A stretch of DNA of 42,302 nucleotides from an uncultured Clostridia bacterium (lineage in GTDB: Bacteria; Bacillota; Clostridia; Christensenellales; Borkfalkiaceae), in NCBI GenBank assembly GCA_945917475.1, contig CAMEHL010000003.1:1-42302 (forward strand). The letters run 5' to 3'. How positions within the stretch are numbered: the first letter of the stretch is position 1; each line of letters opens with the position of its first letter. Below the pieces are notes generated by a model. It had not been told where the DNA came from, did no database searches, and saw only the letters and a list, made by a program, of their open reading frames with translations. Positions 1,095-2,827 of the stretch are shown in pieces. A program made the position numbers and the translations under genes.

Positions 1095-1129
1095 AAATTC
1101 AAAAAGCAATAAACTAAGGTTTACTGCTT
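1095..1129 (-). terminator. Intrinsic terminator of a candidate minus-strand small RNA
   Basis: Minus strand AAGCAGTAAAC-CTTA-GTTTATTGCTT (11-bp stem, one G.U) followed by TTTGAATTTT; no ORF ends here. Confidence 0.6.
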
Positions 1130-1200
1130 CCTGAATAATATATGATAAGGGGGAAAATGATGAGCGTATTTATTGTTTCAAGGTGTTTTCCCTTTCGACA
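1100..1200 (-). ncRNA. Candidate ~100-nt orphan small RNA
   Basis: Preceded on the minus strand by TTTACA-N17-TATAGT (1229-1234 / 1206-1211), ends in the terminator at 1095-1129; no convincing ORF. Confidence 0.45.
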
Positions 1201-1205
1201 ATGAT

Positions 1206-1234
1206 ACTATACTACTTTCGACATTTTTTGTAAA
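1206..1234 (-). promoter_or_regulatory. Sigma70-type promoter TTTACA-17-TATAGT
   Basis: tgtaaa at 1229-1234 and actata at 1206-1211 on + strand; 17-bp spacer. Confidence 0.6.
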
Positions 1235-2295: not shown

Positions 2296-2745
2296 TTACG
2301 CGTTTTTAACGATGTTGGTTACTTCGTTAACAGACAAGGGATTTATAGTGAATACGAGGCAGTTTCCTTTCGCGTAGCCTGCGTCTTCCATCGCTTTGAG
2401 CCACTCTTTAACGCCCTCGCTGGAAGAAACGTCTTTCACGAATCCTTTAACCGTTTCGCTGTCTTCGTAAAGTTTCTTCATATCTTCCGTCGCCTGAAAT
2501 TCGAGAATCAGAACGACGGTGCTTTTAAGACCGTCAACCTTTTTTAAACCGTGCAAAGTAACCGCAAGTTCGTCTTTTTCCGCTTCTTCTTTGATTTTGT
2601 CGTTATAGCCTTCAAGTTCGGCTGATTCTTCGTACCCTTCTTTCTCGAACGCCTTTTTGAGCGAGCCGTAAGACGAGCAACCCGTCATACCCAAAGCAAG
2701 AACCGCCACTAAAACGAGCGCCACGAGCGTTGCAAATTTTTTCAT
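2296..2745 (-). CDS. Small lipoprotein, unknown function
   Basis: Signal peptide with lipobox ALGMTGC; ATG at 2745 is better spaced from AAGGAG than the GTG at 2751. Confidence 0.75.
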   Translation of the reverse strand: MKKFATLVALVLVAVLALGMTGCSSYGSLKKAFEKEGYEESAELEGYNDKIKEEAEKDELAVTLHGLKKVDGLKSTVVLILEFQATEDMKKLYEDSETVKGFVKDVSSSEGVKEWLKAMEDAGYAKGNCLVFTINPLSVNEVTNIVKNA

Positions 2746-2827
2746 AATCACAATCTCCTTTTAATAAATTATTGTACAGACAATATACCATAAGACGAAA
2801 AGCAAGTCAAGAGAAAAAAAGGAATTT

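Follow-up and report, generated by a model that had tools for sequence, protein, structure and literature searches.

A predicted small RNA gene with a core complementary to ribosome-binding sites, conserved in Borkfalkia, Pumilibacter and related Clostridia

In the 42,302-nt stretch of DNA from an uncultured Clostridia bacterium analyzed here (the window), we found on the minus strand a promoter, a predicted transcript of about 100 nt and an intrinsic terminator, with no ORF of note inside. We consider it probable that this is the gene of a trans-acting small RNA (sRNA), of a family absent from Rfam, that pairs over the Shine-Dalgarno (SD) sequence and the AUG and thereby keeps translation from starting. 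A housekeeping-type promoter would yield an RNA of very roughly 75 to 130 nt, made of a usually self-folding leader, a core that would form an exposed C-rich stretch of about 25 nt, and the terminator hairpin. In this core, CCCCCUU would pair with a G-rich SD (AAGGGGG) and CAU with the start codon, at their natural spacing; this pairing would block translation initiation, and decay of the mRNA might ensue. The sequences directly support the anatomy of the gene, its conservation, its strand, the covariation of its terminator, the predicted exposure of its core and the occurrence of near-copies of the core complement as gene starts elsewhere in Clostridia; what we infer is that the gene is transcribed, that the RNA pairs in the cell and represses, and which mRNAs it targets. 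As in other sRNAs of this functional class, the gene has its own promoter and intrinsic terminator and is noncoding, no reading frame being conserved through the core, and an exposed C-rich motif complementary to the SD is predicted, although in the window's own sequence this motif is partly paired.

The promoter, TTTACA-N17-TATAGT (1206 to 1234; all features lie on the minus strand), is of the sigma-70 type and matches the consensus at 10 of 12 positions; in the genus alignment it reads GCTTTACAAA...TATATTA. Judging from promoter and terminator, the sRNA (1094 to 1200) would start around 1200 and end around 1094 to 1101. Its 5' leader (1175 to 1199) contains a weak hairpin, in which AAGG (1194 to 1191) pairs, by eye, with CCTT (1183 to 1180). 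The ultraconserved core GCTCATCATTTTCCCCCTTATCATA (1141 to 1165) is the reverse complement of TATGATAAGGGGGAAAATGATGAGC, an SD-spacer-start codon sequence, and is the presumed mRNA-pairing region; written with its variable position, it is GCTCAT[C/A]ATTTTCCCCCTTATCATA (1165 to 1141). A TATTATTCAG segment (1131 to 1140) is kept in the genus and, beyond it, in just a few close relatives. The intrinsic terminator, CAGGAAGCAGTAAAC-CTTA-GTTTATTGCTTTTTG (1100 to 1133), has a 15-bp stem (1133 to 1119 with 1114 to 1100) and is followed by GAATTTT. An earlier note on this DNA had proposed an orphan minus-strand sRNA gene of about 100 nt here, running from this promoter to a clean intrinsic terminator some 100 nt away with no ORF between, and we found these elements as described. 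The 101-nt RNA folded with -22.3 kcal/mol (z = -4.2), and none of 200 shuffles was equally good; the fold of the plus strand of the same region was unremarkable (z = -1.6). In the predicted fold of the window's own sequence, the core is partly buried by pairing. The gene downstream of the sRNA encodes a thiamine pyrophosphokinase. Upstream, at 2296 to 2751 (minus strand), lies a gene for a small lipoprotein-like protein with a sub-threshold match to DUF4179.

We searched 44 genomes of the same genus with the whole 146-nt region as the query. The sRNA was present in 42 of them and, as a single copy each, in 18 of the 18 near-complete ones; the two genomes without it (G024 and G039) are 58% complete, and the reversed-pattern control gave no match. 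This conservation of the region lends support to the orphan sRNA gene. In the genus alignments, the promoter elements are conserved and the start is ATTGTCGAAAG, followed by a leader of varying sequence. After the leader, the 33-sequence alignment holds 32 invariant bases (CTCATCATTTTCCCCCTTATCATATATTATTC). All 495 cells of the 15 terminator pairs are paired (100%), and six pairs covary, with 23 cells changed on both sides, a level that none of 500 shuffles reached (slid controls, 0 to 2 cells). The conservation of the sRNA unit is far beyond chance.

The earlier note had also drawn a second stem in the 5' half (GGGAAAA/TTTTCCC) and had asked whether both stems would be kept in relatives. The terminator stem is conserved and the 5' stem is not: it is present in the window's predicted fold, but only 73.6% of its cells are paired in the genus, with no double-sided change. 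Two of its three G-C pairs are broken in about half of the genus sequences, and the pattern that we used for a complement of the GGGAAAA type matched only 2 of 42 genus leaders. Half of the proposed structure is thus real (the terminator) and half is peculiar to the window's sequence (the 5' stem). TTTTCCC is part of the ultraconserved, normally exposed core and not of a 5' stem, which would hide the invariant C-run in a duplex.

Across the order, the 21-nt core was found with up to two mismatches in 79 of 297 genomes and 34 of 125 genera, while the reversed pattern gave no match. A sequence-only model (R1) matched 176 of 396 genomes and 62 of 142 genera at E <= 0.01; RNAalifold predicted no consensus pair for the alignment of the whole order, probably owing to the unequal lengths of the terminators. 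Most R1 matches lie below 1e-7, in about 11 families by our own count, and a few of about 1e-3 that fall in other families could be chance matches. The promoter-leader-core-terminator unit is thus spread over the order, in Borkfalkia, Pumilibacter and their relatives, with Pumilibacter intestinalis (strain CLA-AA-M10), Candidatus Borkfalkia and Candidatus Ornithoclostridium among the named carriers. In the NCBI taxonomy, Borkfalkia belongs to Christensenellales and Pumilibacter to Eubacteriales, both of them within Clostridia. Since many of the order loci were found via the core, its conservation there is partly a product of selection; less affected are the genus set, for which the query was the whole region, as well as the GC and TA beside the core, which are absent from some search patterns.

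Behind the core lies, in 214 of 215 instances, a stable hairpin of -16.6 kcal/mol or lower. The exception, in Ruminococcus bicirculans (L203), has no hairpin there and was taken as a chance match. Promoters with at least 10 of 12 consensus positions precede the sRNA at 172 of 212 loci, compared to 6 of 212 in shuffled upstream DNA and 2 of 210 on the opposite strand, and 31 loci have a perfect promoter (12/12). The leaders are mostly 13 to 62 nt long, and in those of at least 25 nt the self-folding is stronger than in shuffles (mean z of -2.3). This self-folding is kept in most relatives despite sequence change and is absent where the leader is only about 16 nt. The predicted unpaired probability of CCCCC averaged 0.85, versus 0.74 with shuffled leaders. 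Between genera, the leader, the terminator sequence and the flanking genes all differ and the core is constant; because the flanking genes differ, we favor action in trans. The sRNA is mostly single copy in the order, and some genomes carry 2 to 6 copies (six in G072; three in G324, two of these 214 nt apart). Within such multicopy sets (G072, L082 to L085; G324, L106 and L107; L143; L217), leaders or terminators diverge and the core is nearly the same. One genome shows, near 1575 of L039 (minus strand), a partial tandem duplication of the leader and the start of the core (GGTTCATAAATTCGCTCATCATTTTATTATTAAAATGATGGTTCATAAATTCGCTCATCATTTTCCCCC).

The surroundings of the gene hold further elements. 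Upstream of the promoter, for example at 1240 to 1345 of the window (minus strand), many genus loci carry TGTTA-N5-TAACA and TTGTGAAAAATTTTCA-like repeats, and other genera have A-tract and T-tract runs. Regulation by Rex, considered on account of TGTTA/TAACA and the TTGTGAAAAATTTTCA repeats, was not supported: the Rex consensus itself occurred in only 4 of 41 genus and 7 of 111 other upstream regions (1.0 and 1.4 in shuffled sequences). The genus repeats may reflect shared ancestry or A-tract UP elements, and repeats and runs alike may mark UP elements or the site of a regulator. Just downstream of the sRNA, L007 (1074 to 1500, minus strand), L005, L014, L025, L026, L029 and L041 carry a second element, TGCTTCCTTCTCCTCCGCT...CTACGGAGCACTAGNCCGTCAAGG...AAAGTCGTGCAGNNCGCAG, whose last part copies the terminator of the sRNA. 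This element is found in tandem in G004 (three copies, with a unit of about 142 nt), G002 and G023, the terminator copies being alike within a genome. Its core pattern occurs in 12 of the 44 genus genomes, mostly adjoining the sRNA; it gave no Rfam match and no match in the window's genome.

The reverse complement of the core, TATGATAAGGGGGAAAATNATGAGC, reads as an idealized SD separated by 6 nt from a start codon. In a class-wide search, about 15 genomes from outside the order matched the core with one or two mismatches. Most of these matches run antisense to an SD and an ATG with which an open frame begins, and a comparable terminator hairpin follows none of them. Because they lie mostly antisense to real gene starts, we read the core as an antisense ribosome-binding site (RBS). 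The sequence AAGGGGG is still able to pair with the 3' end of 16S rRNA via one G-U, so mRNAs carrying it should be translatable and yet fully complementary to the sRNA.

We then turned to possible targets. In the window's own genome, the sole match to the 24-nt complement with up to three mismatches was the sRNA gene itself, leaving no perfect dedicated target, and a 16-nt complement showed no clear excess over the control in six genomes. Starts of the type ATAAGGGGG-N4-8-ATG outnumbered the reversed control, an excess that SD function alone explains. Two kinds of gene, CotF-like (Pfam Coat_F) and SigG-like, come up repeatedly with ATAAGGGGG starts, their orthologues often having GGAG instead, and no RBS complementarity conserved across the genus was found among the candidates. 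Many species of the genus, though not all, have a G-rich SD at the CotF-like gene, and the window's own genome has none there; we regard this gene as a candidate target whose complementarity was gained and lost. At L350 to L379, this gene of about 95 codons alternates between TATAAGGGGG and TATAAGGAG types of SD among genus species. A G-rich SD precedes SigG in a minority only, and the SigG-like gene of G008 has the candidate RBS ATAAGGGGGAAAATATGAG. By mean pairing energy with RBS regions, the core bound best at -5, and shuffled cores bound equally well. A baseline of SD types drawn from chosen loci is biased by that choice and was left out.

On average, RBS regions are bound equally well by dinucleotide-shuffled cores, so generic anti-SD pairing alone is an insufficient explanation for the freezing of the full core. 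One tentative answer, which we consider possible but clearly less likely than not, is that the core is a single antisense ribosome site frozen order-wide as the rest of the gene drifts, and the RNA a global translation regulator, the full 25 nt being constrained either by pairing with many start sites held in common or through recognition by an as yet undescribed RNA chaperone.

A different and rather unlikely answer is that the core binds a protein instead of mRNA, the RNA acting as a sequestering or scaffold RNA, as CsrB and 6S RNA do. Such a role would fit the freezing of the full core, which at 25 nt goes beyond the need of SD pairing, and the average RBS pairing, in which shuffled cores equal it; that a dedicated conserved target was not found also fits it. 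However, the core matches an RBS whose SD and AUG are naturally spaced, and its near-copies in genomes outside the order are mostly antisense to real starts. Single-stranded C-rich motifs of Firmicutes sRNAs are, moreover, mRNA-pairing sites (PMC4132741, PMC9410917), and each RNA here has a single motif with no repeats.

We hold it improbable that the element acts in cis on the gene downstream, as a leader or attenuator, and is not an independent sRNA. In the genus, the sRNA is often followed, at 29 loci and in the same orientation, by a gene for a cysteine-rich protein, which we take to be of the C_GCAxxG_C_C type, and terminator-like units are sometimes repeated between it and the sRNA. This gene does not, however, recur downstream in other genera, and in the window the gene there is that of thiamine pyrophosphokinase; no antiterminator pairing is conserved, and the core would have no partner in cis. 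It is very improbable that the conserved element is the translation start (RBS and initiation codon) of a leader peptide or small protein on the opposite strand: the plus strand does read as a textbook SD-AAAATN-ATGAGC, but the ORFs there are short, variable and close to shuffled ones (median of 15 versus 12.5 aa), promoters are found on the sRNA strand (172/212 versus 2/210), and so are most T-rich tails past the hairpin (110 versus 21 of 214). A DNA-level element (operator or other intergenic motif) with no RNA function is equally hard to credit, for although sequence conservation alone would fit DNA or RNA, a promoter and a covarying terminator flank the core in fixed order and orientation at more than 200 loci.

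The earlier note had recognized no family in this gene, and Rfam 15 (4227 models) gave no match at the gathering threshold for the window and nine related loci. Nothing credible turned up below the threshold either, the best such match being that of the terminator to a plastid 3' UTR (27.4 versus 55.8 bits). Stretches of the core had no text match in a bacterial context in the text of 5.39 million open-access papers, the four matches being in tea-plant and wasp papers, and the main text of a microbiome RNA catalogue (PMC8040213) held no mention that we could find. Few base-pairing sRNAs of Firmicutes are known to be widely conserved, and an uncatalogued one in some 60 genera would be unusual; in 2015, RsaE was described as the only known trans-acting sRNA besides 6S RNA common to Staphylococcus aureus and Bacillus subtilis (PMC4409812). 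The fixed 25-nt sequence as a probe and the named carrier P. intestinalis CLA-AA-M10 offer a handle on post-transcriptional control in these mostly uncultured gut bacteria.

The proposed trans-acting, anti-SD sRNA has clear parallels. In Firmicutes sRNAs, the binding of SDs by C-rich single-stranded motifs is a documented mode (PMC4132741, PMC4409812, PMC9410917). RsaE/RoxS of Staphylococcus and Bacillus is a conserved trans-acting sRNA whose C-rich regions bind the SD and block initiation (PMC4409812). The sRNA described here resembles it in its predicted C-rich anti-SD pairing, but RsaE/RoxS has several C-rich regions (CRR1-4), whereas the conserved part here has one C-rich run, and no Rfam covariance-model match of any kind links the two. 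RoxS is also induced through ResD; a Rex site upstream of the new sRNA is unsupported. In IsrR (Staphylococcus) and FsrA (Bacillus), C-rich regions likewise pair with the SD and, in models of IsrR, also with the AUG (PMC9410917). IsrR is under the control of Fur and has three C-rich regions and stem-loops whose sequence is conserved, whereas here one long core stands between freely varying flanks. The closest analogue in layout is LhrC1-5 of Listeria, multicopy sRNAs of 111 to 114 nt in which a single-stranded UCCC motif between two stem-loops blocks the SD (PMC4132741). LhrC1-5, which are described as conserved among Listeria species, have three redundant short motifs and a different sequence, whereas the sRNA described here has one 25-nt motif per RNA in some 60 genera and one copy per genus genome. 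This raises the question of why 25 bases are fixed when a much shorter C-rich stretch suffices in other anti-SD sRNAs. The best explanation is a mechanism like that of RoxS/RsaE, FsrA, IsrR and LhrC without detectable homology to them: the mechanism would be of a known kind, and the family appears to be new.
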